Shown: positions 31,198 to 64,000 of the stretch, one piece after another
How the letters are laid out: the number at the start of each line of letters is the position of its first letter
Numbering within the stretch: position 1 is the stretch's first letter
Assembly (NCBI RefSeq): GCF_022458985.1
Contig: NC_061787.1
Span: forward strand, 23,383,629 to 23,447,628
Direction of reading: 5' to 3'
DNA from: Mugil cephalus
Lineage: Eukaryota > Chordata > Actinopteri > Mugiliformes > Mugilidae
Length of the DNA: 64,000 nt
The notes under the pieces: model-generated
Seen by the model: the letters and a program-made list of their open reading frames with translations, nothing else
Databases searched by the model: none
Told to the model about the DNA's origin: nothing
Program-made: the position numbers and the translations under genes

Positions 31198-31222
31198 ATC
31201 GCTTCTCGGCTTTTGGCTAAGA
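31198..31222 (+). pseudogene. U2 snRNA 5' fragment (split by LINE)
   Basis: U2 nucleotides 1 to 26 (ATCGCTTCTCGGC...GGCTAAGA, one C missing), preceded by the conserved GCGAGT upstream flank. The LINE begins directly after AAGA. The rest of this U2 gene is at 36634. Confidence 0.9.
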
Positions 31223-31513
31223 CTGCGATCGCTCCCTCAGGGTGGTGAAAGTGATTGTCTCTGTGACATAGCTTTTACGCCAACTTTTTTGGAGAACATA
31301 ATTGCACAACTTTGTCTATTTTTAAGGGTTCATCTGTTTATTACAGCTGCATCCTTACGGATAAAGTAGTTCATTTTCTTTGCGTGTTTTGCACACAAGG
31401 TAAGTTTTGCATTAATTTATTGTTATTTATTGGTTTTATTGTTTTAATCCAGTTGTTTGTTAGAAACATTTTATAGCTGTTTTTTAGCACCCCAAGCTGG
31501 TGGTGCCTCCAAA

Positions 31514-32808
31514 ATGTCGGCCAGCTATCCCGGCACACGGAGGCACCACAGGTCCGCTTCTCTTCGAAGGAGGTTGAGGGAAAACACGTGGGGATGTCAA
31601 GATTTGACTTCTCACGGAATCTAATACAAAAGACCTTGAAGTTTACGCAGATGACCTCAACTGTATTCTGCCCTTACCCTTAACAAGGGCTTTGACGTAA
31701 GCTTCTGTTCAGCATTGTTACTCCGTGACTTTTGGATAAGGTACGAAAATGTGAAATCCCAGTTCTCGGCTTTTAATGTGGAGAAACTGACTGATAATAG
31801 CCTGAAAAACGGTTATTGTAGAATGTTCAATGAAACAGTAAATGCTGAGGACATTTGTCATGGCTGGGAAGATTTTGCACTGTTAAAGGCCAGGCTCCCA
31901 AAGGGGTTAAGGATGAGGACGGCATCGGGAAAACTGTGCCTGGAGGGTACCCATTCAACAATGGCAGGACCCCCAGGGCTTCCAGGGCCTGAAACATCTA
32001 CCATCAATGATAGTTCTTGGTGAAAACAGGGGCTATATCCACTACCAGGGACAGCCCAAGCTCTGCCGCAAGTGTGGCGAGCATGGGCACTGGTAGAGGC
32101 ATGTGATAAAATCGTTTGTGGGAAATGTAGAAAAATTTGGGGCACACCTTTGAGGAGTGCCCCAAAATGGCAGAAAGTGCAATCCTGGGGAGAGGGAGAC
32201 CACCTGTTCAGAGATTGCCCAAAAATCTTTTGCCAACAAGTTGAAACTGACAAAACAAAAGGATATGGTACAAAATGGCGGAAGGAGAGAGACGGTTACA
32301 GAGCTGATTGAAGGGGCGGGCCGGAAATTTCAAATCTCCCCCCAAAAACCCCGTCATTGGTGGAGATGTGGAAGAAGGGAGGGGCATGGTCCACCCCCAC
32401 GACTAGCACTGAAACAGAGGAGATGGGTCAGGGGGAGGGTGGACCCACTGGTGGAACATGACAATCAAGAAACCCAAGATGAACCCCTCCCCGATGCCCA
32501 ACCTTCTAAGAGGCTTGCATCAGAATTGTCCTCTGAGTCTCTTGAAAACTCAGAGAAGAGGGGAAGGGTTGAGACCGCATCAGAAGATTCTTCTGAAGAT
32601 TCTTGGTGGGTCAAGAATCTTCCCCTCCGATTCACCCAATGAGGTCTCTTTTTTTAATATTGCTCTACAATAAACCCCCGAAAGACACAAAGCTAAACGC
32701 AACATTGCAGCAACGGCCCCCACCTAGACGTCGAGGGGGAATGGGGCTCAACCACTTCACTCTCAGTCTGTGGAAGTGAAGGAGGGGGCTCCATTCACAA
32801 GAAATTAA
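31514..32808 (+). pseudogene. Keno copy 1 ORF1 (disrupted)
   Basis: Same layout as ORF1 of copy 2: ATG in CCAAAATGTCGG, then the [20 protein letters not shown] block, the CCHC region (about 32060-32225) and the acidic, serine-rich tail with [12 protein letters not shown]. Frames switch several times. For example, the linker after the second knuckle reads differently from copies 2 and 3. I treat it as a disrupted copy, with sequencing error as a real alternative. Confidence 0.7.
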
Positions 32809-32858
32809 CAACATGTGTTTTAGTTCAAACCACTCGTCATAACATTTTAGTCTTTAAA

Positions 32859-35800
32859 ATGTCAAACCTGTTTATTTTAACAATACTCATGGCAATTACC
32901 TTCTCAACCATAAATGTGAGAAGTGTAAAGTCGAGAGTTAGAGCACAGAGTGTTTTATCATTTCTTAGTTCTTTTAAGTCAGATGTGTTTTTATTACAGG
33001 AATGTTGCATACCGTTTTTTAAAACACTACACACAATGGGAGGGCATATGGTCAGGGAAATCAATATGGAGCGGGTCAAATTACAACAGAAATGATGGGG
33101 TGGCCTTTTTAAAATCAAAACATCCTCACATTCTGGTGAAGGGCCGCACGGTGGTGAAAGACGGTAGGGCGCTTTTAGCACATTTGACTTTTATGGGACA
33201 GGATTTTAACCTTCTTAATATTTATGGTTTTAATGAAAGAAATGACAGGTATGACCTTTTGGAAGACTTGCAGTCCCACATGCTGGGTCAAAAACCCATT
33301 GATTTAGGGGGTGATTTTTAAACCCTGCATTTTAAGCAAAGGGGATAGAAGAGGAGCAGGAGACGATTTTAAAACGGACAAGCGTCGGTTTTAAAAAAAG
33401 ACGATGTGTGACGTTTTTAACTACAGGACTGTTTTAAAATCATGCATCCAAGAGAGGAGGGCTTCACCGGGGTTCAGTGGTGACGGCGCCAGAGCCTCTC
33501 CCATAGATTATTTGTTCCCAGGGACTGTGCACCCACGGATCCCTACATTGACACCTGTCTTCTTTTCTGATCACCACATGCTATCTTGCACTTATCACTC
33601 ACTTTGGGTGCGACACCAGGAAGAGGTCTGTGGAAACTCAATTGCTCCCTCCTAGAAACAAAGACATAGTAGTCGGTATAGGGAGCAATATAGAGAGTGG
33701 CAGACCCTTCAGGATTATACAACTCACGAGCAACTGGTGGGAAATGGTTAAAGGGAGGACCCAGACTTTTTTTAGACGAGCAGGGAAAAAAAAAAGTACA
33801 AGAAAACAGATGCATGATGGGACTGCAAAAACGACTTCAACGGTATTTTGATTAAATAAACATGGGTTCAATTTTAATGATGAAATAAAGCAAGTGAAAA
33901 CAGAAATGTCAAATTTGGCAGAAATCCAAAGTAAAGGAATTATTCTTCGAAGTAAAGAACAAGAAATAGAAGAAGGAGAAAAATGTAGGAGATACTTTTT
34001 TAAAAAAATTATGAAAAAGGGGAGGGAATGTCCTAAAACTGAGGGGGCCGGATGGTAGCCTGGCAAGCACTTCAGATGGGGCCCAGCAGGTTGTCATCAA
34101 ATTCTATAAAAAATTTTATACAAGGAAAAAGCTGTTGAGAATGATACAATGACTGAAGTTTTAGATTTTATTGACCGGACAGTTACAGACAGTGTGATTT
34201 TAACCAAGATTTTACCCTTGAAGAGTTTAACAAGGCTATCTTGAGTTTTAAGAGAGGGAAGTCCCCAGGCCCTGACGGACTTCCTGTGAATTTTATCAAA
34301 CGTTCTGGGACTTTTTAGTACCTGACCTGCTTGTTGTTTTTAAAGACTTTAAACGGCTGGACCTTTTACCGGGACAGTTTTAGAGTGGGGGCAGTGACAC
34401 TCCTCCACAAAGACAAAGAAAAAACGGACCTGAAGAACTGGAGACCAATCACGCTCTTAAACTCTGACTGTAAACTTTTTAACAAATTTTTTAGCGACAC
34501 GGATGAGCATGGTTTAGAGGACTTGTTTCACCCGGATCAAGTCTGTGCCATACGGGGAGGAGGATCACAGACGGCCTGGTACTGATCCGAGTACACCATC
34601 GGGTTACGCGAGAGACAGAAACATTCGGCTAGTAGTCCTAAATTTAGACTTTGAGAAAGCCATTGATCGAGTCTCGCACCAGTACCTTTTTAGGGTATAC
34701 TGCAAAAAATGGGCTTCCAGAGAGGTTTATAACGTGGGTGGGACTGTTGTACCGGGGATTAGCAGCAGATTTCTATTTAAAAGGGCATCTTACAAAAGCA
34801 GTCGATTTTAACTGCGGTGTCCGTCAGGGCTGTCCGTTATCTGCCCTCCTCTATGTGGTTTGTAAAAGAACCATTGGCACAGATCTTGAGAAGGGACAAA
34901 AGAATCAATGGAGTGGGAATTCGGGAAGCGGGGGACTCCCCCACCAAGTGCATTTTGTACATGGACGACATAAACATTTTATGCACTGACCTTTTATCTG
35001 TGAACAGACTCTAGATTTGACAGACTGGTTTGGACAAGCCTCTGGCTCAAGACTGAACAGAGAAAAAACTCAAGCACAATTTTACGGAGCATGGACGCAG
35101 ACAAAAGAAAACAGGACTCGATGTGACTCAGACACAGGAAAACCAGAAATATATTGGTATAAAATTTGACAGGGAGGGAGGAGGGAATGCAAAATTGGGA
35201 AACAGACGTGGTAGGAAAGTTAGACAAAGACTAGGATTTTGGGGACTTAGAGGACGGGACGATAGAAGGGAAGGTTTTAATCATTAAAGCTGTGATTTTA
35301 CCTTACTTTTACTAAATCAGTTCTGTTTTTACCCCGCCTAGAAAAATGTGCTTTTAAATCTAGATCGGGCCATTTTTTACTTCATAGGGGGATCAAAATG
35401 GGAAAGACTGAGGAGACACCAAATGAAGAAACAAAAGGAAAAAGGAGGCAAGGGAGAAACCTGACTTACGTCTGTTTCCCCCGGAAGCAGATACACTTCA
35501 CCCCAAATTTGCAAATGCCACAGACCCATCCAGGAATCTCAAGACAGCGGCGATGACAAGATTCGGGATGGGACCTACCTCAGAAGACTGAAAATTATAC
35601 CCAAAGACTTAAGAACACCTGTGTCTTTTAACCTACCACCTGCATATGCTTTTATTCAAATGTTTTTAAAGCATTTAAGTTAGAGGGTGAAAAACCCTAC
35701 AGCTTTTATGTAACCATCGCCATGTCATCTCTTTTTGTGCAGGAACGGGAGCCAGTGAACCCAAATGCGCGGGCTTGCACTCGGCGAGCCCTCCACAGTT

Positions 35801-36474
35801 TGGCGCAATGTAAACCATCCGCTCTCCCAAACAGACTCCGGGACCTGTCATGGATGGTGGCACATGAGATCCTCCCGGTCAGGTCCGTCATGCACTCCCG
35901 GGGCATGGCAAAAAAGTCAACCTGCCCCCCGACCGGGTTGTGGCGCACCTGAGACGGTGAGGCACTTGCTCTGGGAGTGCAGCGCTGCCGAAGCCCTGTG
36001 GGCAATGGCTGGCTCCTTAAATTTCCCGTATTGCCAGCAAGGGAGGTCCTTACAGCCCAGCTGGTGCTGTATGGGGTGAGCCATGACAATAAATCACAGA
36101 GTAAAGAAGAGTTTGCCAAGCAGTGGCTCGCCCTAGCCGCCATCAAAGACGCCATGTGTACCTCCAGAAACTTGCTGGTAAGAAGGCACATGCAGATCCC
36201 CCCCGTGGCTGTGATCCGGATTGCTGCAGCAACGGCCAAAGCTGCCGGAGTTGCAGGCGGCAAGCCAAGGACACTGCCACAAAGAAGAATCGCCTCTGTG
36301 CCTATTCGGAAGAAGGAGCCAGAGTCACACGGGAAAAGGTCAAAGCAGCGGCGGCCTGGCCCTCCGGGAGTGGAAGGTGGGAAGGAGCAACAGGGTGGGG
36401 ATCCCCTCTGTGCACCAGGACGGATACCGAGAGACCCCCTGTTTCGGGGCGGAAATGAGTAGACTTATTAAGGA
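32859..36474 (+). pseudogene. Keno copy 1 ORF2 (disrupted)
   Basis: Starts [20 protein letters not shown] as in copy 2. Endonuclease landmarks ([24 protein letters not shown]) and RT landmarks ([55 protein letters not shown]) are all findable, but across many frame changes. The KAIDRVSH block differs from KAFDRVSH in copy 2. Minus-strand frames of up to 185 codons overlap this gene and are shadows. Confidence 0.75.
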
Positions 36475-36633
36475 CTCACTCCGCTTCTGTACAAAAGAGA
36501 ATATACAAAAAATGTTTTAAAAACATATTTATTTTATCTTAACTAAAATTTAAAAGCAATGTGTGTGTGATGTGAACGATGACTCAAAGCATTTTGTATC
36601 AATAAATAATTTTAATAAAAAAAAAAAAAAAAA

Positions 36634-36786
36634 TCTGTTCTTATCAGTTTAATATCTGATAGGGTCCCCCTATCGGGACCATATATAAGTTGTTTTTGGG
36701 TTTGGGAGATGGAGCAAGGGCTTGCTCTCTCCACCCCAAAGCTTTGACCAGGTTTTTGCAGTACCTCCGGGAGGGGTTTGCACCCC
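36634..36786 (+). pseudogene. U2 snRNA 3' fragment (split by LINE)
   Basis: Resumes at U2 nucleotide 39 (TCTGTTCTTATCAG) and runs through the Sm site and the 3' stem-loops. Nucleotides 27-38 are absent from both fragments. This fragment shows changed bases in the stem after GATA and near CTCTCCACCCCAAAGC, so it is decayed or poorly sequenced. Confidence 0.85.
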
Positions 36787-37187: not shown

Positions 37188-37351
37188 ATACTTACCTGGC
37201 AGGGGAGATACCGTGATCAAAAAGGCGGTTCACCCAGGGCGAGGCTCGCCATTGCACTCCAGGTCGTGCTGACCCCTGCGAATTCCCCAAATGTGGGAAT
37301 CTCGACTGCATAATTTCTGGCAGTGGGGGACTGCGTTCGCGCTCTCCCCTG
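37188..37351 (+). ncRNA. RNU1: U1 snRNA
   Basis: Complete 164-nt U1 gene. It starts ATACTTACCTGGCAGGGGAG, where ACTTACCTG pairs with 5' splice sites. It continues with the stem-loop I to III region (TTGCACTCCAGG loop II), the Sm site ATAATTTCTGG and the terminal stem ending CTCTCCCCTG. U1 snRNP starts spliceosome assembly in the nucleus. The gene lies 387 bp upstream of a U2 start that is interrupted by a LINE; the U1 itself looks usable. Confidence 0.93.
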
Positions 37352-37574: not shown

Positions 37575-37600
37575 ATCGCTTCTCGGCCTTTTGGCTAAGA
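37575..37600 (+). pseudogene. U2 snRNA 5' fragment (split by LINE)
   Basis: Exactly the first 26 nt of U2 (ATCGCTTCTCGG...GGCTAAGA). The LINE starts with CTGCGATCGC. The upstream ~220 bp is the same as in the intact U2 units, so a transcript started here would be U2 leader fused to LINE RNA. Confidence 0.93.
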
Positions 37601-37886
37601 CTGCGATCGCTCCTCAGGGTGGTGAAAGTGATTGTCTCTGTGACATAGCTTTACGCCAACGTTTTGGAGAACATCATTGCACAACTTTGTCTATTTTAAG
37701 GGTTCATCTGTTTATTACAGCTGCATCCTTACGGATAAAGTAGTTCATTTTCTTGCGTCTTTTGCACACAAGGTAAGTTTTGCACTAATTTATTGTTATT
37801 TATTGGTTTTATTGTTTTAATCCAGTTGTTTGTTAGAAACATTTTATAGCTGTTTTTTAGCACCCCAAGCTGGTGGTGCCTCCAAA

Positions 37887-39181
37887 ATGTCGGCCAGCTA
37901 TGCCGGCACACGGAGGCACCACAGTGTCCGCTTCTCTTCGAAGGAGGTTGATGGAAAACACGTGGGGATGTCAAGACTTGACTTCTCACGGAATCTAATA
38001 CAAAAGACCTTGAAGTTTACCGCAGATGACCTCAACTGTATTCTGACCTTACCCTTTAACAAGGGCTTTGACGTAAGCTTCTGTTCAGCATTGTTACTCC
38101 GTGACTTTTGGATAAGGTACGAAAATGTGAAATCCCAGTTCTCGGCTTTTAATGTGGAGAAACTGACTGATAATAGCCTGAAAACGGTTATTGTTAGAAT
38201 GTTCAATGAAACAGTAAATGCTGAGGACATTTGCTCATGGCTGGGAAGATTTTGCACTGTTAAAGGCCAGGCTACCAAGGTTAAGGATGAGGACGGCATC
38301 TGGAACTGTGCCTGGAGGGTACCCATTCAACAATGGCAGGACCCCCAGGGCTTCCAGGGCCTGAAACATCTACCATCAATGATAGTTCTTGGTGAAAACA
38401 GGGGCTATATCCACTACCAGGGACAGCCCAAGCTCTGCCGCAGTGTGGTGAGCATGGGCACCTGGTAGAGGCATGTGATAAAATCGTTTGTGGGAAATGT
38501 AGAGAAATTGGGCACACCTTTGAGGAGTGCACCAATGGCAGAAAGTGCAATCTCTGTGGAGAGGGAGACCACCTGTTCAGAGATTGCCCAAAATCTTTTG
38601 CCAACAAGTTGAAACTGACAAAACAAAAGGACATGGTACAAAATGGCGGAATGAGAGAGACGGTGACAGAGCTGATTGAAGGGGCGGAGCCGGAAATTTC
38701 AAATCTCCCGCCAAAACCCGTCATTGGTGGAGATGTGGAAGAAGGGGAGGGGCATGGTCCACCCCCACCGACTAGCACTGAAACAGAGGAGATGGGTCAG
38801 GTGGAGGGTGGACCCACTGGTGGACATGACAATCAAGAAAGCCAAGATGAACCCCTCCCCGATGCCCAACCTTCTAAGAGGCTTGCATCAGAATTGTCCT
38901 CTGAGTCTCTTGAAAACTCAGAGAAGAGGGGAAGGGTTGAGACCGCATCAGAAGATTCTTCTGAAGATTCTTCTGGTGGGTCAAGAATCTTCCCCTCCGA
39001 TTCACCCAATGAGGTCTCTTTTTTAAATATTGCTCTACAATCAACCCCGAAAGACACAAAGCTAAACGCAACATTGCAGCAACGGCCCCCACCTAGACGT
39101 CGACGGGGGAATGGGGCTCAACCACTTCACTCTCAGTCTGTGGAAGTGAAGGAGGAGCTCCATTCACAAGAAATTAACTAA
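37887..39181 (+). CDS. Keno copy 2 ORF1, CCHC nucleic-acid-binding protein (one frame break)
   Basis: About 431 codons from [14 protein letters not shown], chosen because this ATG is shared by all copies. Residues ~45-160 form a globular domain ([32 protein letters not shown]) resembling the N-terminal part of ZCCHC3-like proteins. It is followed by [13 protein letters not shown] and three CX2CX4HX4C knuckles at about 184-197, 202-215 and 221-234. The tail is acidic and serine-rich, then basic (PPPRRRRG). The protein presumably coats LINE RNA. In this copy one base is lost within the first knuckle (about 38443); copy 3 reads [14 protein letters not shown] there without a break. Confidence 0.85.
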
Positions 39182-39231
39182 CACTGTGTTTTAGTTCAAA
39201 ACCACTCGTCATAACATTTTAGTCTTTTAAA

Positions 39232-42200
39232 ATGTCAAACCTGTTTATTTTAACAATACTCATGGCAATTACCTTCTCAACCATAAATGTGAGAAGTGTA
39301 AAGTCGAGAGTTAGAGCACAGAGTGTTTTATCATTTCTTAGTTCTTTTAAGTCAGATGTGTTTTTATTACAGGAATGTTGCATACCGTTTTTTAAACACT
39401 ACACACAATGGGTGGGCATATGGTCAGGGAAATCAATATGGAGCGGGTCAAATTACAACAGAAATGATGGAGTGGCCATTTTAATCAACAATCCTCACAT
39501 TCTGGTGAAGGGCAGCACGGTGGTGAAAGACGGTAGGGCGCTTTTAGCACATTTGACTTTTATGGGACAGGATTTTAACCTTCTTAATATTTATGGTTTT
39601 AATGAAAGAAATGACAGGTATGACCTTTTGGAAGACTTGCAGTCCCACATGCTGGGTCGAAAACCATTGATTTTAGGGGGTGATTTTTAACTGCATTTTA
39701 AGCAAAGGGGATAGAAGAGGAGCAGGAGACGATTTTAAAACGGACAAGACGTCGGTTTTATTAAAGACGATGTGTGACGTTTTTAAACTACAGGACTGTT
39801 TTAAAATCATGCATCCAAGAGAGGAGGGCTTCACCTGGTTCAGTGGTGACGGCGCCAGAGCCTCTCGCATAGATTATTTGTTCACCAGGGACTGTGCACC
39901 CACGGATGCTACATTGACACCTGTCTTCTTTTCTGATCACCACATGCTATCTTGCACATTATCACTCACTTTGGGTGCGACACCAGGAAGAGGTCTGTGG
40001 AAACTCAATTGCTCCCTCCTAGAAGACAAAGACATAGTTAGTCGGTATAGGGAGCAATATAGAGAGTGGCAGACCCTTCAGGACTTATACAACTCACGAG
40101 CACACTGGTGGGAAATGGTTAAAGGGAGGACCCAGACTTTTTTTAGACGAGCAGGGAAAAGAAAAAAGTACAAAGAAAACAGATGCATGATGGGACTGCA
40201 AAAACGACTTCAACGGTATTTTGAATTAAATAAACATGGGTTCAATTTTAATGATGAAATAAAGCAAGTGAAAACAGAAATGTCAAATTTGGCAGAAATC
40301 CAAAGTAAAGGAATTATTCTTCGAAGTAAAGAACAAGAAATAGAAGAAGGAGAAAAATGTAGGAGATACTTTTTTAAAAAAATAATGAACAAGGGAGGGA
40401 ATGTCCTAAAACTGAGGGGGGCGGATGGTAGCCTGGCAAGCACTTCAGATGGGGCCCAGCAGGTTGTCATCAAATTCTATGAAAATCTATACAAGGAAAA
40501 AGCTGTTGAGAATGATACAATGACTGAAGTTTTAGATTTTATTGACCGGGACAGTTACAGACAGTGTGATTTTAACCCAAGATTTTACCCTTGAAGAGTT
40601 AAACAAGGCTATCTTGAGTTTTAAGAGAGGGAAGTCCCCAGGCCCTGACGGACTTCCCTGTGAATTTTATCAAACGTTCTGGGACATTTTAGTACCTGAC
40701 CTGCTTGTTGTTTTAAAGACTTTGAACGGCTGGACCTTTTACCTGACAGTTTTAGAGTAGGGGCAGTGACACTCCTCCACAAAGACAAAGACAAAACGGA
40801 CCTGAAGAACTGGAGACCAATCACGCTCTTAAACTCTGACTGTAAACTTTTTAACAAACTTTTAGCGACACGGATGAGCATGGTTTTAGAGGACTTGATT
40901 CACCCGGATCAAGTCTGTGCCATACCGGGGAGGAGGATCACAGACGGCCTGGTACTGATCCGAGACACCATCTGTTACGCGAGAGACAGAAACATTCGGC
41001 TAGTAGTCCTAATTTAGACTTTGAGAAAGCCTTTGATCGAGTCTCGCACCAGTACCTTTTTAGGGTACTGCAAAAAATGGGCTTCCCAGAGAGGTTTATA
41101 ACGTGGGTGGGACTGTTGTACCGGGGGATTAGCAGCAGATTTCTAGTTAATGGGCATCTTACAAAAGCAGTCGATATTAACTGCGGTGTCCGTCAGGGCT
41201 GTCCGTTATCTGCCCTCTCTATGTGGTTTGTATAGAACCATTGGCACAGATCTTGAGAAGGGACAAAAGAATCAATGGAGTGGGAATTCCGGGAAGCGGG
41301 GGACTCACCACCAAGTGCATTTTGTACATGGACGACATAAACATTTTATGCACTGACCTTTTATCTGTGAACAGGACTCTAGACTTGACAGACTGGTTTG
41401 GACAAGCCTCTGGCTCAAGACTGAACAGAGAAAAAACTCAAGCACAATTTTACGGAGCATGGACGCAGACAAGAGAAAACAGGACTCGATGTGACTCAGA
41501 CACAGGAAAACCAGAAAATATTGGGTATAAAATTTGACAGGGAGGGAGGAGGGAATGCAAATTGGACAGACGTGGTAGGGAAAGTTAGACAAAGACTAGG
41601 ATTTTGGGGACTTAGAGGACTGACGATAGAAGGGAAGGTTTTAATCATTAAAGCTGTGATTTTACCCTTACTTTTACTAATCAGTTCTGTTTTTACCCCC
41701 GCCTAGAAATGTGCTTTTAAATCTAGATCGGGCCATTTTTTACTTCATATGGGGATCAAAATGGGGAAAGACTGAGGAGACACCAAATGAAGAAACACAA
41801 AGGAAAAAGGAGGCAAGGGAGTACCTGACTTACGTCTGTTTCTCGGAAGCAGATACACTTCACTCCATATTGCAAATGCCACAGACCCATCCAGGAATCT
41901 CAAGACAGCGGCGATGACAAGATTCTGGATGGGGACCTACCTCAGAAGACTGAAAATTCTACCCAAAGACTTAAAAACACCTGTGTCTTTTAACCTACGT
42001 CCTGCATATGCTTTTATTCAAATGTTTTTAAAGCATTTTAACCTAGAGGGTGAAGAACTACAGCTTTTCTGTAACCATCGCCATGTCATCTCTTTTGTGC
42101 AGGAACGAGAGCCAGTGAATCCACTGCGCGGGCTTGCACTCGGCGAGCCCTCCACAGTTTGGCGCAATGTAAACCATCCCGCTCTCCCAAACAGACTCCG

Positions 42201-42834
42201 GGACCTGTCATGGATGGTGGCACATGAGATCCTCCCGGTCAGGTCCGTCATGCACTCCCGGGGCATGGCAAGAAACTCAACCTGCCCCCGACCGGGTTGT
42301 GGCGCACCTGAGACGGTGAGGCACTTGCTCTGGGAGTGCAGCGCTGCCGAAGACCTGTGGGCAATGGCTGGCTCCTTAAATTTCCCGTACTTGCCAGCAA
42401 GGGAGGTCCTTACAGCCCAGCTGGTGCTGTATGGGGTGAGCCATGACAATAAATCACAGAGTAAAGAAGAGTTTGCCAAGCAGTGGCTCGCCCTAGCCGC
42501 CATCAAAGACGCCATGTGGACCTCCAGAAACTTGCTGGTAAGAAGGCACATGCAGATCCCCCCCGTGGCTGTGATCCGGATGGCTGCAGCAACGGCCAAA
42601 GCTGCCGGAGTTGCAGGCGGCAAGCCAAGGACACAGCCACAAAGAAGAATCGCCTCTGTGCCTATTCGGAAGAAGGAGCCAGAGTCACACGGGAAAAGGT
42701 CAAAGCAGCGGCGGCCTGGCCCTCCGGGAGTGGAAGGTGGGAAGGAGCAACAGGGTGGGGATCTCCTCTGTGCACCAGGACAGGATACCGAGAGACCTCC
42801 TGTTTCGGGGAGCGAAATGAGTAGACTTATTTAA
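39232..42834 (+). CDS. Keno copy 2 ORF2, endonuclease/reverse transcriptase (several frame breaks)
   Basis: About 1,200 codons. The APE-type endonuclease has INVRS (residue ~19), LQE (~45), GGDFN (~147), SRIDYLF and SDHHM (~232). It is followed by a lysine-rich linker. The reverse transcriptase has NWRPITLLN (~525), [12 protein letters not shown] (~594), [11 protein letters not shown] (~652) and YMDD (~698). The C-terminus has a knuckle of form C-x4-C-x7-H-x4-C ([19 protein letters not shown], ~1017). The endonuclease nicks the U2 gene and the RT primes from the nick. Frame breaks occur in homopolymers, for example an extra T after GGDF near 39686, where copy 5 reads GGDFNCI. Sequencing error is therefore plausible. 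Confidence 0.88.
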
Positions 42835-42998
42835 GGACTCACTCCGCTTCTGTACAAAAGAGAATATACACAAAATGTTTTAAAAACATATTTATGTTAT
42901 CTTAACTGAAATTAATGCAATGTGTGTGTGATGTGAACCGATGACTCAAAGCATTTTGTATCAATAAATAATTTTAATAAAAAAAAAAAAAAAAAAAA

Positions 42999-43147
42999 TC
43001 TGTTCTTATCAGTTTAATATCTGATACGTCCTCTATCCGAGGACCATATATTAAGTTGATTTTTGGGTTTGGGAGATGGAGCAAGGGCTTGCTCTCTCCA
43101 CTCCACGCATCGACCTGGTATTGCAGTACCTCCGGGAGCGGTGCACT
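42999..43147 (+). pseudogene. U2 snRNA 3' fragment (split by LINE)
   Basis: U2 from nucleotide 39 to the 3' end, with the GATTTTTGG Sm site, the CAAGGGCTTGCTCTCTCCAC stem-loop region and the AGCGGTGCACT end, all as in intact copies. The GTGTCAACAAACAAGAA 3' box-like sequence follows. Confidence 0.92.
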
Positions 43148-43282
43148 CCTCTACACGTGTCAACAAACAAGAACGGCTTGGTAAGCTCTGCGTACAACTT
43201 GGCTGACTCTGGAAGAAGAAGCCGGATGCGCTCGCCTCGTAGGACTTCTTCAGTGGCTGTATCTTTACACAGAGTTTCTTGG
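43148..43282. other. U2 3' spacer, long type
   Basis: Long form of the post-U2 spacer, with CTGCGTACAACTTGGCTGAC before the GGAAGAAGAAGCCGG stretch. In every unit this long form is followed by the 1.29-kb insert. The short form (36820, 47768) never is. Confidence 0.8.
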
Positions 43283-44567
43283 TCTTGTGGCGGGGCGGTA
43301 GGGCTAATAAATTGTACTTAGTTATTTTACACTGAAATCAGTATACTTGTTGCCAGACAACGCCACCTCAGGTACTCACCCTAAGGACATTACTATTACC
43401 AGATCTTCGGTTTTACACAATACAGGTCCGTTGCTCGGCAAGCAAGAGACGTGGCCCATGAAATTAGTCACAATAATATTTTATTAATACAAAGGATCCA
43501 AACAAAAGAAAATGCAAAAACAAAAGTCAGACACACGTGAAAAGAGCACACCCGTGAACGACCCACATCCCTGGAAACGGCACAGCAGACAGGAGGATCT
43601 CCTACGATCACCCACACCACTACAGGCCGTCAGCCCCTGAAACAAAAAGAAAAGCACCAAATATAATCAGCAAATATACAAAGTTAAAATATCACCAGAT
43701 GAAATGATAAAACTGCTAATACAAATCAAATCGCCAGCATCAATTGAACACAATCGGAATTGAATGAAAAACGAAATCCAAAAGTGTGAACCAGATAAAA
43801 GGGGTCACGAAACCCTCACTAAAAAAAGAGCGGACGCTGGCAACCGAGAACGGGCTGCTACGAGCCGCGGCGAAGGCGAACGAACCAACCACAGGTGGGC
43901 GACAAGCGCAATAGGACGGACGGCAGCAAAGCACCGCAGCACGCCGGAGCCAGCCAAACCCGAGCCGGGAAACAGCTGCACGGACGGACAGGAACTTGAA
44001 GCAGGACAAAGCAGCAGAGGTCATGCAGACGGAAGGGAGCCAATGGAGGTGATGGACTTGATCCTACTTAAACAAAAAAGGAAATTAAATACCCGATCGC
44101 TCCCCCCACAGGACAGGTTAGACTCAGAAAGAACGAAATACATACCTTATGGTACAGCACCTGTTCATGCAACCAGTGAGACGAGGCAAGAGCAGCGAGC
44201 CGCTACCAGCATTTACCTGTGACCACACTACATTAAACTACTGATAACGAGAGATCCAGCACAACGAGAAAGGATACGCACCAGACAAGGAGACCACATG
44301 GAGCCAGAATCCACCCACAGCCCCTTTGTCACAGCACAAGAGTGCTATTCTCTTTTCAAGAGAAATAGTTAAGGCTCCCGCAAATACAAAACTGGCAAAA
44401 ACGTACGCGGCCCCCGGAGTTACCTGTTGCAGCCACACAGGACGTCCCAGAAATTACGCCAGCGGGAGACAGAGGGAGGAGGCGTAGGAGGGGCCGCTCT
44501 TTTATCCACGACCCCATCATAATTGACTCCTGGCCACGCCCAGCCGCATAATTATATGCTGCTACAG
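43283..44567. repeat. 1.29-kb spacer insert, copy 2
   Basis: Cleanest copy, 1285 bp, from TCTTGTGGCGGGGCGG to TGCTGCTACAG. Compared with the insert-free junction (TTTCTTGG joined to CCGGTTACCC at 47840), it adds this block with at most a degraded 4-bp GGCC-type duplication (GGTC left, AGCC right). Near-identity with copy 1 indicates spread by unit duplication and not by repeated insertion. Confidence 0.6.
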
Positions 44568-50859: not shown

Positions 50860-50890
50860 ATCTCGCATACTCGGGTGCCTTAGGCTAAGA
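50860..50890 (+). pseudogene. U2 snRNA 5' fragment (split by LINE)
   Basis: Noisy version of U2 nt 1-26 (ATCTCGCATACTCGGGTGCC...GGCTAAGA) joined to the LINE start CTGCCATCTGCTCC. Confidence 0.8.
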
Positions 50891-51202: not shown

Positions 51203-52543
51203 ATGTCGGCCACTATCGCACTGACGGAGGCACCACAGTGTCCCCCGCCTTCTCTTCGAAGGAGGTTGATGGAAAACACGTGGTGGATGTCAAGACTTGA
51301 CTTGCACAGGAATCTAAAATACAAAAGACCTTGAAGTTTAACCGCAGATGACCTCAACTGTATTCTGACCTTACCCTTTTAACAAGCAAGGGCTTTGACG
51401 TAAGCTCTGTTCAGCATTGTTTACTCCGTGACTTTTTGGATAAGGTCCGAAAATGTGAAATCCCAGTTCTCAGGCTTTTAATGTGGAGAAACTGACTGAT
51501 AATACCTGAAAACGGTTTTTATTGTTAGAATGTTTTCAATGAAACAGTAAATGCTTAGACAATTGCTCAAGGCTGGGAAGATTTTTGCACTGATAAAGGC
51601 CTGGCTTTACCAAGGTTAAGGATGAGGACCTCCACTGGATCTGTGCCTGGGGTACCCATTCAACAATGGCAGGACCCCCAGGGCGTCCCGGTCCTGAAAC
51701 ATCTACCATCAATGATATCTTCTTGGTGAAAACAGGGGCTATATCCACTACCAGGGACAGCCCAAGCTCTGCCGTGCAAGTGTGGGGTGAGCATGGGCAC
51801 CTGTAGAGCATGTGATAAAAAATCTTTTTTGTGTGAAATGTAAGAAATTGGTCACACCTTTTGAGGAGTGCACCAATGGGCAGAAAGTGCAATCTCTGTG
51901 GAAGAGGGAACCACCTGTCAGAGATTGCCCAAAATCCTATTGCCAACAAGTTGAAACTGACAAAACAAAGGACATGGAACAAAAAGTGGCGAATATGAGA
52001 TAGACGGTGACCATAGCCGATTGAATGGGCGTACCGAATTTTCAAATCTCCCGCCAAAACCCGTCATTGGTGGAGATGTGGGAAGAAGTGGAGGGCATGG
52101 TCCCACCCCCACCGACTAGCACTAAACAGCGGAGATGGGTCAGGTGGAGGGTGGACCCACGGATGACATGACTAATCAAGAAATCCAAGAAGACCCCCCC
52201 ACTCCCTAATCCCCACCAACTCATAGGCTATGCATACAGAATTGGACCTCTGCGATCACTAGACACCTCAGCCAGAGAAGAGGGGCAGGGGGTTGAGACC
52301 GCATCAGAAGATTCTTCTGAATATTCTTCTGGTGGGTCAAGAAACTTCCCGTCCGATTCACCCCAATGAGGTCTCTTTTTTTAAATCTTGCTTACAAACA
52401 ACCCCGAAAGAACACAAAGCTAAACGCAACATTGCAGCAACGGCCCCCCACCTAGAACTCGACGGGGGAATGGGGCTCAACCACTTCACACTCAGTCTGT
52501 TGGAAGAGAAGGAGGAGCACCATTCACCAAGAAATTAACTAAC
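51203..52543 (+). pseudogene. Keno copy 4 ORF1 (frame destroyed as read)
   Basis: Position equivalent to ORF1 of copy 2, from ATG in CCAAAAATGTCGGCC. The knuckle region lies at about 51765-51930. No long frame survives because of scattered indels that also affect non-coding DNA equally, so this is best explained by sequence quality. Confidence 0.65.
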
Positions 52544-52592
52544 ACTGTGATTTAGTTCAAAACCACTCGTCATAACATTTTAGCATTTCAAT

Positions 52593-55500
52593 ATGTCAAC
52601 CCTTTTTATTTTCACAATACTCATGGGCAATTACCTACTCAACCATAAATGTGAGAAGACTGTAAGTCGAGAGTTTAAGAGCAACCAGAGTGTTTTATCA
52701 TTTCTTAGTTCTTTACAGGTCAGATGTGTTTTTAATTACAGAAAGTTGGCATACCGTATTTTTAAACACATTAACACAACAATGGTTGGCAAAAGGGTCA
52801 GGGAAATCAATAATGAGATGGAGCGGTCCAATTTCAACAGAAATGAATGGAGTGGCCATTTTTAATCAGACAATCCTCACATTCCTGGTGAAGGGGCAAG
52901 GCAACCGTGGGAGAAAGACGGTAGGGCGGCTTTTAGCACATTTGACTTTTATGGGACAGGATTTTAACCTTCTTAATATATTAGGGTTTTTAATGAAAGA
53001 AATGACGGTATGACCGTTTGAAGACATTGCAGCCCACATTTCTTGGTCGAAAACCATTGATTTTAAGGGGTGATTTTTAAAACTGCATTTTAAGCAAAGG
53101 GGATAGAAAGGCGCCAGGAGACGATTTTAAAACGGACAAGACTTCGGTTTTATTAAAGAACGATGTGTGACGAATTTTTAAACAACAAGGACAGTTTTAA
53201 AATCATGCCATCCAAGAGAGGAGGGCTTCACCTGGTTCAGTGAGAGACGGCGCAGAGCCACTCGCAGTAGATTATTTGTTCACCCCAGGACTGTGCACCC
53301 AACGGATGCTACAATTGACACCTGTCTTCTTTTCCTGTCACCACATCTATCATGCACAATAAACACTCACTTTGGGGTGCGACAATCCAGGAAGAGGTTC
53401 TGTGGAAACTCCAATGCTCCCAATCCTAGAAGACAAAGACCCATAGTTAGTCGGTATACAGGGAGCAATATAGAGAGTGGCAAGAACCTTCAGACTTATA
53501 CACTCACGAGCACACTGTTGGGAAATGGTTAAAGGGAGGACCCAGACTTTTTTAGACTAGCAGGGAAAAGAAAAAAGTACAAAGACAACAGATGCATGAT
53601 GGTACTGTTTGCGCAAAAACGACTTCAACGGTAGTTTTGAATTAAAATACACATGGGTTCAATTTTAATGATGAATATAAAGCAAGTGAAAGAACAGAAA
53701 ATGTCAAATTTGGCCGAAAAAGCCAAAGTAAAAGGAAATATTCATCGAAGTAAAGAACAAAAATATAGAAGAAAGGAGAAAAAATGTAGGAAGATACTTT
53801 TTTAAAAAAATAAATGAACAAGGGAGGAATGTCCTAAAACTGAGGGGCGGATGGAGCCTGCAAGCACATCAGATGGGCCAGCAGGTTTGTCACAAATTCT
53901 ATTATAAATCTATACAAGGAAAAAGCTTTTGATAATGATCCAATACTGAAGTTTTAGATTTTATTGACCGGACAGTTACAGAAGTGTGATTTTTAACCCA
54001 AGATTTTACCCTTGAAGAGTTAAACCAGGCTATCTTGAGTTTTAAGAGAGGGAAGTCCCCAGGCCCTGACGGACTTGGCCCTGTGAATTTTATCAACGTT
54101 CTGACATTTTAGTAACCCTGACCTGTCTTTTGTTTTTAAAGACTTTAGAACCGGCTGGACCATTTACCTTGACAGTGTTAGAGTAGGGGCAGTGACGACT
54201 CCTCCACAAAGACAAAGACAAAACGGACCTGAAGAAACTGGAGACCAATCACGCTCTTAAAACTCTGACTTAAACTTTTAATCAAACTTTTTAGCGACAA
54301 AAAAACGGATGAGCATGGTATTAGAGCTAGATTCACACCAACCGATCAAGTCTGTCCATACCGGGTAGGAGTATCACAGACGGAGGCCTGGTACTGAATC
54401 ACCGAGACAACCACCATCAGTTACGCGAGAGACAGAAACATTCGGCAGAATTCCTAAATTTAGACTTTTGAGAAAGCCATTGAATCGAGAACCGCACCAT
54501 TACCTTTTTAAGGTACTGCAAAAAAGGGCTTCCCAGAGAAGGTTTATAAACGTGGGTGGGACTGTTTTGTACCGGGGGCTTATCAGCAAGATTTCTAGTT
54601 AATGGGCATCTTACAAAAGCAGTCGATATTAAACTCGTGTCCGACAGGGCTGTCCGTTATCATCCATGCCCCTCCACTATTTGGGTTTGTATAGAACCAT
54701 TGGCACAGATCGTTGAGAGGGACAAAGAATCAATGGAGTGGGAATACGGAAGCGGGGACTCACCACCAATGCATTTTTGTACCTGGACGAACATAAACCA
54801 TTTATGCACAGACCCTTTTATCTGAGAACAGGTCTCAGACTTGACAGACTGGATTGGACAAGCCTCTTGCTCAAGACTGAACAGAGAAAAAACTCAAGCC
54901 CAATTTACGGAGCAAGGACCAACAGAGAAAACAGGACCGATGTGACTCAGACACAGGAAAAAACCCGAAATTATTGGGTGATACAATTTGACAGGGAGAG
55001 GGCGGGAATGCAAATTGGAACAGAACGTAGGTAGGGAAAGTTAGACAATGACTAGGATTTTGGGGACTTAGAGGACTGACATAAGAAGGTAATGTTATTA
55101 AAAAATCAATAAATGCTGTGATTTTAAACACCCTTACTTTTACTAATCAGATTTCTGTTTTAATTAAATTTTAACCCGCCTCAGAAATGTGCTTTAAATC
55201 CTAGATCGGGCCCATTATTTACTTCATATGGGTATCAAAATGGAGAAGACTGATGAGACAACCAAATGAAGAAACAAAAAGGGAAAAAGGAGGCAAGGGA
55301 GAGTACCTGACTTAACGCAAAGTAACTCGAAGCAGAAACACTTTCACCTCCATATTGCCAATGCCACAGACCCATCCAGGAATCCTCAAGACACACGGCG
55401 ATGACAAGATTCTGGATGGGGACCTACCTCATAAACGAAAATTACTACCCAAAGACTTAAGAACACCCTTATGGGTCTATTAACCTACCACCTGCATATG

Positions 55501-56345
55501 CTTTTATTCAAATGTTTTAAGCATTTTAACCTAGAGTTGAAGAACTACCGCTTTTTCTGTAACCAAACGCCATGGTCATCCTCTTTTGTGCAGGAACGAG
55601 AGCCAGTGAATCCACTGCGCGGCTAGCACTCGGGCGAGCCCTCCACAGTTTGGCGCAATGTAAACCATCCCGCTCTCCCAAACAGACACCGGGACCTGTC
55701 AAGGATGGTGGCACATGAGATCCTCCCGGTCAGGTCCTCATTCACTCCCGGGGCATTGCAAGAAACTCACCAGCCCCCGACCGGGTTGTGGCGCACCTGA
55801 GACGTGCTCGGCACTTTGCTCTGGGAGTGCATCTCTGCCGAAGACCCTGTGGGCAATGCTGGCCCTCCTTAAATTATCCCGTACTTGCCAGCAAAGGTAT
55901 GTCCTATAAACTCGCCCAGCTGGGTGCAGTATGGGGTGAGCCATGACAATAAATCACAGAGTAAAGAAATTTGCCAGCAGTGTCCTCGCCCTAGGCCTCC
56001 ATCAAAGACGCCAAGTGGACCGCCAGAAACTTGCTGGAAAGAAGGCACCAATGCATAATCCCCCCCCCGTGGCTGTGATCCGGACATGGCTGCAGCAACG
56101 GCCAAATCTGCCGAGTTTGCAGGCGGCAAGCCAAGGACACAGACACAAAGAATAATCGCCTAAGTGCCTATTCGGAAGAAGAGCCAAGTCACACGGAAAA
56201 GGTCAAAAGCAGCGGCGGCGGCCTGGCCCACCGGGAGTGGAAGGTGGGAAGGAGCACAACAGGGTGGGGATCTCCTCTGTGCACCAGGACAGATACCGAG
56301 AGACCCTCCTGTTTCGGGGACGAAATGAGAGTAGACCTTATATAA
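52593..56345 (+). pseudogene. Keno copy 4 ORF2 (frame destroyed as read)
   Basis: Begins at the same ATGTCAAC point as copy 2 and ends near CGAAATGAGAGTAG. Fragments such as [22 protein letters not shown] (shifted) and CGAPET are recognisable. Indels occur every few tens of bases. Confidence 0.65.
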
Positions 56346-56527
56346 GGACTCCACTCCGCTTCTGTACAAAAGAAGAATCTACACAAAATGTTAAAAAACA
56401 TATTTTAATGTTATCCTTAACTGAAAAAAAATGCAATGTGTGTGTGATGTGAACCGATGATGACTAAAAGCTTTTTGTTATCACTAATAATTAATATTAA
56501 TAAAAAAAAAAAAAAAAAAAAAAAAAG

Positions 56528-56682
56528 TCTGTTCTTATCAGTTTAAATATCTGATACGTCCTCTAATCCGAGGCCATATATTAAGCTGATATATTGGGTT
56601 TGGGAGATGAGCAAACAAGGGCATGCTCTCTCCACTACCCACGCACGACCTGGATTGGCAGTACCCCGGGAGCGGTGCACTC
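56528..56682 (+). pseudogene. U2 snRNA 3' fragment (split by LINE)
   Basis: U2 from nucleotide 39 to GCGGTGCACTC, with noise (TTAAATATCTG, GATGAGCAAACAAGG). The long spacer form and the insert follow. Confidence 0.8.
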
Positions 56683-56822
56683 CTCTACCACTTGTCAACA
56701 AACAAGAACGGCTTTGGTAAGCTCTGCGTACAACTTGGCTGACTCCTGAAAATAAGCCGGATGGGCGCTCTGCCTCTTGTACAATCTCTTCAGTGGCTGT
56801 ATCTTTTACACAGAGTTTCTTG

Positions 56823-58759: not shown

Positions 58760-58786
58760 ATCGCTTCTCCTACCTTTTGGCTAAGA
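58760..58786 (+). pseudogene. U2 snRNA 5' fragment (split by LINE)
   Basis: ATCGCTTCTCCTACC...GGCTAAGA: the U2 leader with one or two changes, joined to the LINE start CTGGATCAGCTCC. The 3' part lies beyond the window. Confidence 0.85.
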
Positions 58787-59089
58787 CTGGATCAGCTCCT
58801 CAGGGTGGAGACAGTGATTGACTCTGTGACATAGCTTTACCGACACCGCCAACGTTTTGGAGAACATCATTGCACAACTTTGTCTATTATAAGGGTTCAT
58901 CTGTTTATTACAGCTGCATCCCATACGGATAAAGTTAGTTTCATTCTTTGCCGTGTTTGCACACAGATGTACTTTTTGCATTAATTTATTGTTATTTATT
59001 GGGTTTTTAAATTGTTTTAATCCAGTTTTTGTATAGAAACAATTTATAGCTGTTTTATTTTTTAGCACCCAAGTGGTGGAGCCTCCAAA

Positions 59090-60415
59090 AAAGTCGGCCA
59101 ACTATGCCCGGCACACGGAGGCCCCACAGTGTCCGCTCTCTTACGCAGGAGGTTGAGGAAAACACGTGGGATTTCAAGACTTGACTTCATCACGGAATCA
59201 AATACAAAAGACCTTGGAAGGTATTACCGCAGATGACCTCAACGTATTCTGACCTTACCCTTTTAACAAGGCTTTTTGACGTAGAGCTTACTGTTCAGCA
59301 TTGTTACTCACGTGGACATTTGGAAAAGGTCGAAATGTGAAATCCCAGTTCTTTCTTTCTCAGGGCTTTTAAATGTGTAGAAACTGACTTGATAATAGCC
59401 TGAAAACGGTTATTGTTAGAATGTTCAATGAAACATAAATGCTGAGGGACATTTGCTCATAGGTCTGGGAAAGATGTTGCCAAGCACTGTTAAAGGCCAG
59501 CTAACCAAGGTAAAGGAGAGGACGCATCTGGAACTGTGCCGGAGGGTACCCATTCAACAATGGCAGGACCCCCAGGGCTTCCCAGGCCAGAAAACAACTA
59601 TCCATCAATGATAGATCTTGGTGAAACAGGGGCTAAAACTCCACTACCAGGGACAGCCCAAGCTCTGCCGCAAGTGTGGTGAGCATGGGCCCCTGGTAGA
59701 GGCATGTGATAAAATCGTTTGTGGGAAATGTATAGAAATTGGGCACACATTGAGGATGCACCAATGGCAGAAAGTGCAATCTCGGTGGAGAAGGGAGAAC
59801 CACCTGTTCAGAGAAGCCCAAAAATCTTTTGCCAACAAGTTGAAACGACAAAACAAAAGGACATGGTACAAAATGGCGGAATGAGAGAGACGTTACAGAG
59901 CTGATTGACGGGTCGGATCCGGAAATTTCAAATCTCCCGCCAAAACCCGTATTTAGGTGGAGAATGTGGAAGACGGTGAAGGGGCATGGTCCACCCCCAC
60001 CGACTAGCACGAAACAGAGGAGATTGGGTCAGCGGTGGAGGGTGGAACCCACTGGTGGACAATGACAAACAAGAAAGCCAAATGACCCCTCCCGATGCCC
60101 AACCCCTCTAAAGCTTGCATCAGAATTGTCCTCATGATTCACTTGAAAAACTCAGAGAAGAGGGGAAGGGTTGAGACCGCACAGAAGATACTCTGAAGAT
60201 ATCCTTTCTTGGTGGGTCAAGAATCTTCCCCTCCGATTCACCCAATGAGGTCTCTTTTTAAATATTGCACTACAATCAACGCCCGAAAGACACAAAGCTA
60301 AACCAACATTGCCAGCAACGGCCCCCACCTAGACGTCGACGGGAATGGGCTCAACCACTTTCACTCTCAGTCTGTGGAAATTGAAGGAGGAGCTTCCATT
60401 CTCAAAGAAAATTAC
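59090..60415 (+). pseudogene. Keno copy 5 ORF1 (frame destroyed as read)
   Basis: A frame near 59618-59884 reads [20 protein letters not shown] and CGKCIEIGHT, so two of the three knuckles are visible. The ATG shared by other copies appears as AAAAAGTCGG. Dense indels elsewhere. Confidence 0.65.
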
Positions 60416-60470
60416 TAACTCTGTGTTTTAGTTCAAAACCACGTCGTCAAACATTTAGTCCATATTTAAA

Positions 60471-63400
60471 ATGTCCAAACCTGTTTATTTAACAATACTC
60501 ATGGCAATTACCATCTCAACCATAAATGTGATAAGAGTAAAGACGAGCGTTAGAGCACAGAGTGTTTATCATTTCTATTTCTTTAAGTCAGATTTGTTTT
60601 TATTACAAGTAAATGTTGCATACCGATTTTTAAACATTACACACAATGGGAGGGCATATGACAGTGAAATCAAAATGGAGGGGGTCAAATTATCACAGAA
60701 ATGAGGAGTAGGCCATTTTAAATCAACAATCCCACCATTCTGGTGAAGGGGCAGCACGGTGTGAAAGACGGTAGGGACTTATTAGCACATTTTTGACATT
60801 TATGAGACAGGATTTTAAAACCTTCTTAATATATATGATTTAAAGAAAGAAATGACAGGTATTACCTTTTTGAAGACTAGCATGTCCAACATGCTGGGTC
60901 GAACACCATTGATATTAAGGGGGTGATTTTAACTGCATTTTACGCAAAGGATAGAAGAGGAGCAGGAGACATTTTAAAAAACGGACAAGACGTTCGGTTT
61001 AATTAAAGTACGATGTGGACGATTTTTAAAACAACAGGACTGTTTTTAAAATCATGCATCCAAGATAGGAGGGCATCAACCTGGTTCAGTGGTGACGGCG
61101 CCAGAGCCTCTCGCAAAATTATATGTTCACCAGGACTGTGCACCCACGGATGCTACATAGAAACCTGTCCATCTTATCTGATCACCACATGCCTATCATG
61201 CACATTATCACTCACTATTTGGGGTGTGGACAAAACCAGGAAGAAGTCTGTGGAACTCAATCTGCTTCCCATCCTAGAATACAAAGACATAGTTATCGGT
61301 ATAGGGAGCAAATATAGAGAGTGGCAGACCCTTCAGACTTATCCAACTCACGAGCACACTGGTGGGAAATGGTTAAAGGGAGGACCCAACTTTTTTAGAC
61401 GAGCAGGGAAAAGAGAAAATACACAAAGAAAACAGATGCATGATGGGACAAGCAAAAACGACTTCAACGGTATTTTGAATTAAAATAAACATGGTTTCCA
61501 ATTTTAATGATGAAATAAAGCAAGTGCAAAACAGAAATGTCAAAATTTTGTGCAGAAATCCAAAGAAAAGGAAGTATTCTTCGAAGTAAAGAACAAGAAA
61601 TAGAAAGGGAGAAAAATGTACGCGATACATTTATAAAAAAATAAATGAACAAGGAGGGAATGTCTCTAAAACTGAGGGTGGCGGATGGTAGCCTGGTCAG
61701 CACTTCAGATGGTGCCCACAGGTTGTCATCAATTTCTATGAAAATCCTATACAAGGAAAAGCTGTTGAGAATGATAATAATGACTGAAGTTAGATTTTAA
61801 ATTGACCGACCGTTACAGACAGTTTGATTATAACCCAAGAATTTAACCCACGAAGAGTATTAACACATGGCTATCTCTTGAGTTTTAAGAGAGGGAAGTC
61901 CCCAGGCCCTGACGGACTTCCCTGTGAATTTTATCAAACGATCAGGACATTTTAGTACCTGACATGCTTGTTTGTTTGTTAAAGACTTTGAACGGCTGAC
62001 CTTTTACCTGACAGTTATAGAGTAGGGGCAGTGACACTACTCCTCCACAAGAGAAACAGACAAAACGGACCAGAAGAACTGGTAGACCAATTCACGCTCG
62101 TAAACTCTGACTGTAAACTTTTTAGCAAACTAGCGACAAACGGATGATCATGGTTTTTAGAGGACTTGATTCACCCCGGATCAAGTCAGTGCACATACCT
62201 GGGGAGAGGATCACTCACAGACGGCCTGGTACTGAACCGAGACACCAATACTGTTTACGCGAGAAGACAGAAACATTCGGCTAGTAGTCCTAAACTTTAG
62301 ACATAGAGAAAGCCTTTGATCGAGTCTCGCACCAGTAGTACATTTTTAAGGGTACTGCAAAAAAATGGGCTCCCAGAGAGTTAATAAAACGGGGGATGGA
62401 CGTTGTATCCGGGGGATTAGCAGCAGATTATCTAGTTAATGGGCACTACAAAAGCATCGTATTAACTGCGGTGTCCTCAGGGCTGTTCCGTTATCTGCCC
62501 TCCTCTATGTGGTTTGTATAGAACCATTGGCACAGATCTTGAAAGGACAAAAAGAACAATGGCGTGGGAATTCCGGGAAGCGGGGGAACTCCACCACCAG
62601 TGCATTTTGTTACATGGACGACATAAACATTTAATGCACTGACCAATTTATCTGTGAACCATGAACTCAAGACATGAACAGACTTGTTATGACAAGGGCC
62701 TCTGGCACAAGACGGAACAGAGTAAAAACAGCAAGCACAATTTTAACGGCGCCTTGACGCAGACAGAGAAAACAGGACATCGATGTTACTCAACACAGGA
62801 AAACCCGAAAATATTGGGTAAAAAATTTGAACAGGGAGGGAGGAGGGAATGCAAATTGGACAGACCGTTGAAGGGACAGTTTAGACAAAGACTAGGATTT
62901 GGGGACTAGAGGACTGACGATAGAAGGGAAGGTTTTAAATCATTAAAGATGTGATTTAACCCTTTACTTTTACTAATCAGTTCTGGTATTTTAAACCCCG
63001 CCTAGAAATGTGCATTTTAACTCTAGATCGTGCCATTTTTTACTTCATAAGGGATCAAAATGGGAAAGACTGATGGAGACAACCAATGAAGAAACAAAAG
63101 GAAAAAAGGAGGCAAGGGAGTACCTGACTTACGTCTGTTTTCTTCTCGGAAGCAGATACACTTCACTCCATATTGCAAATGGCAACAGACCCATCCATGA
63201 ATCTCAAGACAGCGGCGATGACAAGATTCTGGCTTGGGGACCCTACACTCAGAATACTGGAAAAATCTACCCAAAGACTAAGAACAACCTGTTCTTTTAA
63301 CCTACCACCATGCATATGCTTTTTATTCAAATTTTTTAAAGCATTTTAAGTTAAGGTGCAGAACAACAGCTTTTAAGAACCCTCGCCATGTCATCTCTTT

Positions 63401-64000
63401 TGTGCAGGAACGGTAGCCAGTGAATCCACTTGCGCGGCGCTTGCACTTCGGCGAGCCCTCCACAGTTGGCGCAATGTAAACCATCCCGCACTCCCAAACA
63501 GACTATCTTCCGGGACCTGTCATGGATGGTGGCACATGAAGATCCACCCGTCAGGTCCGTTCATTCACTGCCCCCCGGGGCAAACGGCAAGAAACTCAAC
63601 CTGCCCCCAGACCCTGGTTGTGGCGCAAACCTGAGACAGTGAGCAGCACATGCACTGGGAGTGCAGCGCAGCCGAAGACCTGTGGCAATGGCTGGGCTCC
63701 TTAAATTCCCGTACTAGCCATCAAAGGGAGGTCCTTACAAGCCAGCTGGTGCTGTATGGGGTGACCATGACAATAAATCACAGAGTAACGGAAGAGTTTG
63801 CCAAGCAGTGGCAGAGCTCGCCCTATCCGCCATCAAAGACGCCATAATGGACCCGTCCAAACTGCTGGTAAGAAGGCACACGCAATGATCCCCCCTGTGG
63901 CAGTGATCCGGCATGCTGCCAGCAACGGCCAAAGCTGCCGGGCTGCAGGCCGCAAGCCAAGGACCCAGCCACAAAGAAGAATCGCCTCTGTGCCAATTCG
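60471..64000 (+). pseudogene. Keno copy 5 ORF2 (partial, frame destroyed as read)
   Basis: Starts at the ATGTCCAAACC equivalent of the shared ORF2 start. Endonuclease pieces (near 61013-61480) and the GGTGTCC...CAGGGCTGTTCC motif-B region (near 62470) are recognisable. The YMDD coding stretch TACATGGACGAC is present near 62611. It ends at the window edge. Confidence 0.65.

Follow-up and report, generated by a model that had tools for sequence, protein, structure and literature searches.

R1 and R2 are long interspersed nuclear elements (LINEs) that occupy part of an essential tandem array, the ribosomal DNA, a target that differs from the U2 small nuclear RNA (snRNA) gene. U2 genes are targeted by Keno, a Tx1-group non-long-terminal-repeat (non-LTR) retrotransposon from fish, frogs, lancelet and hydra (PMC4640811, PMC6136364, PMC3706591), whose insertion destroys the target (PMC6136364). 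Utopia uses the same 3' site in U2, and several of its families lie in Phytophthora U2 arrays with intact U2 genes nearby, but it encodes a restriction-like endonuclease, its 5' boundaries vary by family, and in Phytophthora no 5' fragment of U2 stands upstream of it (PMC4640811). Dada-U1 and Dada-U6 also target multicopy snRNA genes in fish, but are DNA transposons with target-site duplications (PMC3706591). Linked U1 and U2 genes are known in fish (PMC4696792). How a target-specific retrotransposon persists when its essential target has few copies is still an open question, raised before for Utopia (PMC4640811). Here we examine a U1-U2 array in a teleost assembly of 634.8 Mb, in which five of the seven U2 positions in the window (the whole analyzed stretch of 64,000 nt, G000:C18:23383629-23447628, ending 3.3 kb short of the end of contig C18) are split by a LINE that is best filed as a fish Keno. 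U2-homing Keno elements are known, and this is one more example, in another fish; what holds promise is the contrast between U2 arrays.

The array fills the right half of the window (units A to G; Table 1). Two U2 genes, at 47540 and 48514, are uninterrupted, and at 31198, 37575, ~45263, ~50862 and 58760 the U2 leader runs into the 5' end of a LINE in sense orientation (copies K1 to K5). This agrees with an earlier sequence-only reading of the same stretch, which had described five of seven U2 genes split by one LINE at the same base, with intact and occupied units side by side, as they are seen in the assembly. The 5' junction falls at about U2 nt 26 in all five units, being clean or near-clean in two (31198, 37575) and noisy or garbled in three; BLAST detected four of the five leaders, with only a weak match at 45263 (nt 5-25, E 1.4), and the leader at ~50862, too noisy for BLAST, was read by eye. 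All three 3' junctions visible within the window (36633, 42998 and 56528) consist of poly(A) followed by U2 nt 38/39, A38 being indistinguishable from poly(A). The claim that each split U2 resumes at nt 39 therefore held for three of the five units, as the 3' end of K3 is lost in the 500-N gap at 46666-47165 and that of K5, discussed below, is different; counting the K5 end, the nt 38/39 junction is found in three of four visible ends. Judged from the alignments, this junction pattern is well beyond chance. The split units are without U2 nt 27-38 (12 nt), which include GTAGTA at nt 33-38, whose RNA counterpart pairs with the branch site of the intron; a split unit should therefore not yield working U2. 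The length range of 5.3-5.6 kb initially given for the LINE turned out to be mostly sequencing noise (insertions and deletions of K4 and K5 relative to K2).

To the Keno assignment of the sequence-only reading, the protein domains and the target site both lend support. Among eight open pieces of K2 and K3 compared with Pfam, those of open reading frame 1 (ORF1) hold two ZCCHC3-type RNA-binding domains and CCHC knuckles, and those of ORF2 hold the apurinic/apyrimidinic endonuclease (APE) domain Exo_endo_phos (25.9 bits, cut-off 24.5; window 39223-39687), RVT_1 (41 bits) and zf-RVT (39 bits). One of the eight pieces is without a Pfam match, yet resembles chains of the LINE-1 ORF2 protein. For the 305-aa segment at 39677-40591, four solved chains matched at E up to 0.01, all of them LINE-1 ORF2 protein. 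The ten best protein matches are 58-82% identical for a 347-aa piece of K2 and 65-81% identical for a piece of a copy on contig C9, and in both sets the matches named by organism are teleosts. No protein was named Keno or Tx1 among the best 120 of 169 matches to the 347-aa piece or, for the C9 piece, among the best 120 of 431. The 3' target of the LINE equals the published Keno target TCTGTTCTTATCAGTTTAAT (PMC6136364). In its U2 target, 3' flank TCTGTTCTTATCAG, APE endonuclease and fish host the LINE resembles Keno (PMC4640811, PMC6136364, PMC3706591); it differs in being a further copy family in another teleost, with many units of one array occupied. In the available portions of PMC6136364 and related Keno literature we found no statement of a 12-nt target loss as typical of Keno, and among the papers listed for the occupancy of U2 arrays none seemed pertinent apart from PMC6136364.

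Searching the genome with intact U2 gave at least 40 candidates, all of them matching, and many matches begin at nt 38-41. A second array on C9 (110 kb fetched) holds 15 full-length U2 genes (185-196 bits, few base differences among them; the count leaves out a 16th, partial match of 69.8 bits and N stretches). One further C9 U2, with a C9-type promoter, is interrupted by a Keno copy whose 5' junction falls at the same base (nt 26) and whose 3' end is missing; this copy may be either a separate insertion or one moved by exchange between chromosomes. On the minus strand at C18:22.33-22.37 Mb there are three full-length U2 genes (149-179 bits), one more that is apparently present and garbled, and five U2 genes occupied or rearranged by Keno (a to e), a by-eye junction count that leaves out a garbled 3' junction at ~22357.8 kb and U2 fragments at 22367470, 22377262 and 22385895. 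Single full-length or near-full-length U2 matches lie on C21, C3 and C7. Fisher's exact test for split versus intact units gave p = 0.0034 for C9 (1:15) against the window (5:2) and p = 0.0008 for C9 against both C18 arrays (11:6, including a sixth copy, K6, and the garbled intact gene), values that are only a guide, as units are non-independent and the C18 counts come from a poor assembly. As the C9 array is nearly untouched, the window does not fairly represent the U2 genes of this genome, and the earlier framing as occupancy of most units in a stretch of an essential-gene array fails. On C18, the array at 22.33-22.37 Mb is also partly occupied. The two intact U2 genes of the window are identical to C9 U2 at nt 1-60 and differ in the 3' half; because of the identity in nt 1-60, the contrast in Keno load is not due to the target sequence. 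One U2 stem, presumably stem IIb, is changed on both sides (GTCCTC...GAGGAC versus GTCCCC...GGGGAC), and this two-sided change suggests that selection maintained C18 U2, in the past if not now.

Other pieces related to Keno were noted. Two intact U2 genes on C9 are followed, ~390 bp downstream, by Keno pieces with internal deletions (C9:2367157-2368575 and 2379676-2381093), and at C18:22367300-22367520 an inverted Keno tail with a U2 fragment meets, head-to-head, the leader of U2 and the 5' end of Keno. At four further loci (L031-L034; C23, C11, C5 and C18:23.34 Mb) the Keno-like last ~22 bp (called by BLAST in two of the four, by eye in the others) and poly(A) terminate a sequence other than Keno, at least 1 kb long; next comes U2, from nt 38 on in three of the four and from nt 54 on at the C5 locus. 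This sequence is perhaps a non-autonomous element with a Keno tail that in three of the four cases spread together with flanking U2/U1 spacer.

Alternative explanations concern the identity of the element, the reality of its high occupancy and the number of its insertions. The 3' flank is common to Utopia and Keno (PMC4640811); nonetheless, an APE-type Exo_endo_phos domain in place of a restriction-like endonuclease, together with poly(A) at the end and parts of two ORFs, makes it exceedingly improbable that the element is a Utopia family, and we rejected that identity. Dada was rejected as well, as RT is present, 12 nt of the target are missing and there is no target-site duplication. The high occupancy could be an assembly effect, in which one or two occupied loci were placed repeatedly in a collapsed, gap-filled end of C18, and the array indeed lies at the extreme scaffold end, with one 500-N gap 5' of it (28852-29351), another splitting it (46666-47165) and sequence that we judge garbled at 44884-45262 (unit C, before K3). 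Between polished sequence lies a ~16-kb raw-read-like stretch (~49-65.5 kb; onset at ~49.0 kb, polished sequence back ~600 bp into K6), with insertions of ~3-6%, deletions of 0.6-3% and substitutions of 2-7% relative to unit B (U1, promoters, spacers, LINE, U2 3' part), and 5.1-5.9%, 1.9-2.4% and 3.5-3.7%, respectively, for K4 and K5 relative to K2. It resembles a bridge between polished pieces made of at least one raw long read; if the bridge is a single read, two occupied units stand in tandem on one molecule, and otherwise their order is uncertain. The odd U2 3' part of unit A (36650-36790) could reflect real evolution, but we attribute it to polishing error, because similar homopolymer-inflated garble occurs at C18:22.350-22.351 Mb. 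The terminal array is badly assembled, and five of seven is therefore not a measured occupancy. As K4, K5, c and d are noisy, whole-identity comparison was dropped in favor of 31 sites informative among the better copies and substitutions in clean context. K4 carries the K2 allele at 30 of 30 comparable sites, for which reason units B and F may be one locus, or F a duplicate of B, and the repeated-locus case described by the sequence-only reading as its refutation is possible for K4. Alleles and flanks do not bear it out for K1, K3 and K5, which differ from K2 at 5 of 31, 1 of 5 and 9 of 30 informative sites, respectively (3 of the 9 in clean context), although K3 thus differs at a single site and the K5 sequence is noisy. 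Four haplotypes are found among the five window copies. The flanks differ too: U1 is deleted 5' of K1, K3 and K5 and present 5' of K2 and K4, and a ~1.3-kb spacer insert (S) lies upstream of K1, K3, K4 and K5, not K2, and downstream of K2 and K4, not K1, so that K4, with intact U1 and S on both sides, is flanked differently from K2. Occupied and intact units are moreover mixed in 80 kb without N runs at C18:22.325-22.405 Mb (parts garbled). It is thus likely that the window holds at least three distinct occupied units, subject to assembly error, and we consider a pure assembly effect unlikely.

A somewhat stronger possibility, still short of probable in our view, is that Keno inserted only once and the occupied unit was then multiplied as the array underwent unequal exchange, the five copies representing one hit and subsequent turnover. 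The 5' junction is the same throughout, the polished copies differ little (0.4-2.5% in clean context, part of it error, among K1, K2, K3, K6, a, b and the C9 copy), K2 and K4 are indistinguishable, and the odd K5-type junction, poly(A) followed by U1-promoter sequence, is common to both C18 arrays (the contig end, L030, and C18:22344730-22349902), a sharing that would fit repeated placement of one locus as well. Against a single insertion, a copy with the same junction stands on C9 in a different array and U2 type, and the C18 copies carry different alleles, K2 sharing two with the C9 copy against K1, K6, a and b.

The explanation that we hold with high confidence is that of a young teleost Keno-type, presumably U2-specific, APE-encoding non-LTR retrotransposon that inserts by target-primed reverse transcription, entered C18 more than once and was redistributed by array exchange, with C9 remaining near-free. 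Several observations weigh against it. No open frame exceeds 368 aa in the 11 whole or partial copies examined (the longest frames are those of the C9 copy, 368 aa, and of K2, 347 aa), a breakage that may in part be sequencing error, as K3 is open where K2 ORF1 shifts frame. The poly(A) of K5, just past the window, joins U1-promoter sequence TCAAATACGG instead of U2, with U2 nt 39 onward and the spacer gone; this junction may stem equally well from an off-target insertion at the U1 promoter or from a deletion that came later, with 2-nt microhomology (TC). Informative sites conflict as well, K2 and the C9 copy agreeing at 1032 and 1052 and disagreeing at 75 and 427, and independent insertion is therefore not cleanly separable from gene conversion. 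Under the favored explanation, the endonuclease would nick the antisense strand at U2 nt 38/39, where the poly(A) end of Keno RNA would prime reverse transcription, and the sense strand would be cut ~12 nt upstream (26/27), with loss of nt 27-38. Keno RNA would probably be read through from the U2 promoter, as suggested by the sense position of Keno behind a preserved U2 promoter and leader, the U1-U2 spacers of units A and B being 96-99% identical to those of intact units D and E. Keno most likely entered the divergent C18 U1-U2 array more than once, after which array exchange (unit duplication, deletion and conversion) would have spread, mixed and damaged occupied units; the C9 array is almost Keno-free, most likely through selection or exchange removing split units.

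The contrast in Keno load may mean either that split units were purged from C9 or that the C18 array was tolerated or preferred. We offer only as a doubtful proposal that the U2 arrays differ in kind: the C9 array would be conserved and kept almost without Keno, whereas the divergent C18 array, mostly occupied, would serve as a Keno reservoir. If the snRNA array on C18 were stage-specific (for example in the oocyte), its being transcribed in the germline and tolerating split genes would account for the burden as well as for the persistence of the element; that it is expressed as an oocyte type is a guess, by analogy with the maternal U1/U6 genes on zebrafish chromosome 4 (PMC11075544). The same target in two arrays, one split to 15 intact in one and mostly split in the other, could separate selection, exchange and expression, if reads confirm it.

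Table 1. Features of the U1-U2 array in the window (window positions).
Feature	Position	Strand	Match or remark
U2 leader nt 1-26, one base short, split unit A	31198..31222	+	96% to intact U2
Keno copy K1, 5.4 kb with poly(A)	31223..36632	+	
U2 3' part nt 38-192, unit A	36633..36785	+	63.5 bits; homopolymer-inflated differences that look like polishing error
U1 snRNA gene 5' of unit B	37188..37351	+	covariance model, 159 bits
U2 leader nt 1-26, split unit B	37575..37600	+	100%
Keno copy K2, 5.4 kb	37601..42997	+	best polished full-length window copy; frames broken
U2 3' part nt 38-192, unit B	42998..43151	+	98.7%
Spacer insert S, 1.3 kb, from U2 to next U1 promoter	43282..44566	+	
U2 leader (nt 5-25), split unit C	45263..45281	+	garbled, weak match
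Keno copy K3, 5' 1.4 kb only	45282..46665	+	truncated by assembly gap
500-N gap	46666..47165		
Intact U2 gene, unit D	47540..47730	+	Rfam U2 covariance model, 182.9 bits
U1 snRNA gene, unit E	48128..48292	+	covariance model, 157.2 bits
Intact U2 gene, unit E	48514..48705	+	Rfam U2 covariance model, 183.5 bits
U1 snRNA gene, unit F	50461..50630	+	noisy stretch
U2 leader, split unit F	50862..50887	+	noisy, by-eye reading
Keno copy K4	50888..56526	+	raw-read-like noise
U2 3' part nt 39-192, unit F	56528..56685	+	
U2 leader, split unit G	58760..58786	+	
Keno copy K5	58787..64000	+	runs beyond window

Beyond K5 follow U1, a noisy U2 leader and K6, which extends up to the contig end. Homopolymer-inflated garble that mimics divergence in snRNA genes, likely a polishing failure, is seen at window 36633-36785 and at C18:22350482-22351377. 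The S spacer, present in some units, also occurs at window 29352-30636, 48836-50161 and 56823-58164. Three units have lost most of U1 and kept its promoter (window 30932-30971, 44861-44884 and 58477-58510), the U1 remnant being 23-40 nt from ~nt 127 on, after short filler. Ten ORFs (eight in the left half of the window, two in the S spacer) gave no Pfam match above the curated cut-off. The left half carries a ~5-kb inverted repeat, 96.6% identical (window 5439-10482 / 22230-27306). Three tRNA matches are clustered at L027 6098-6732.

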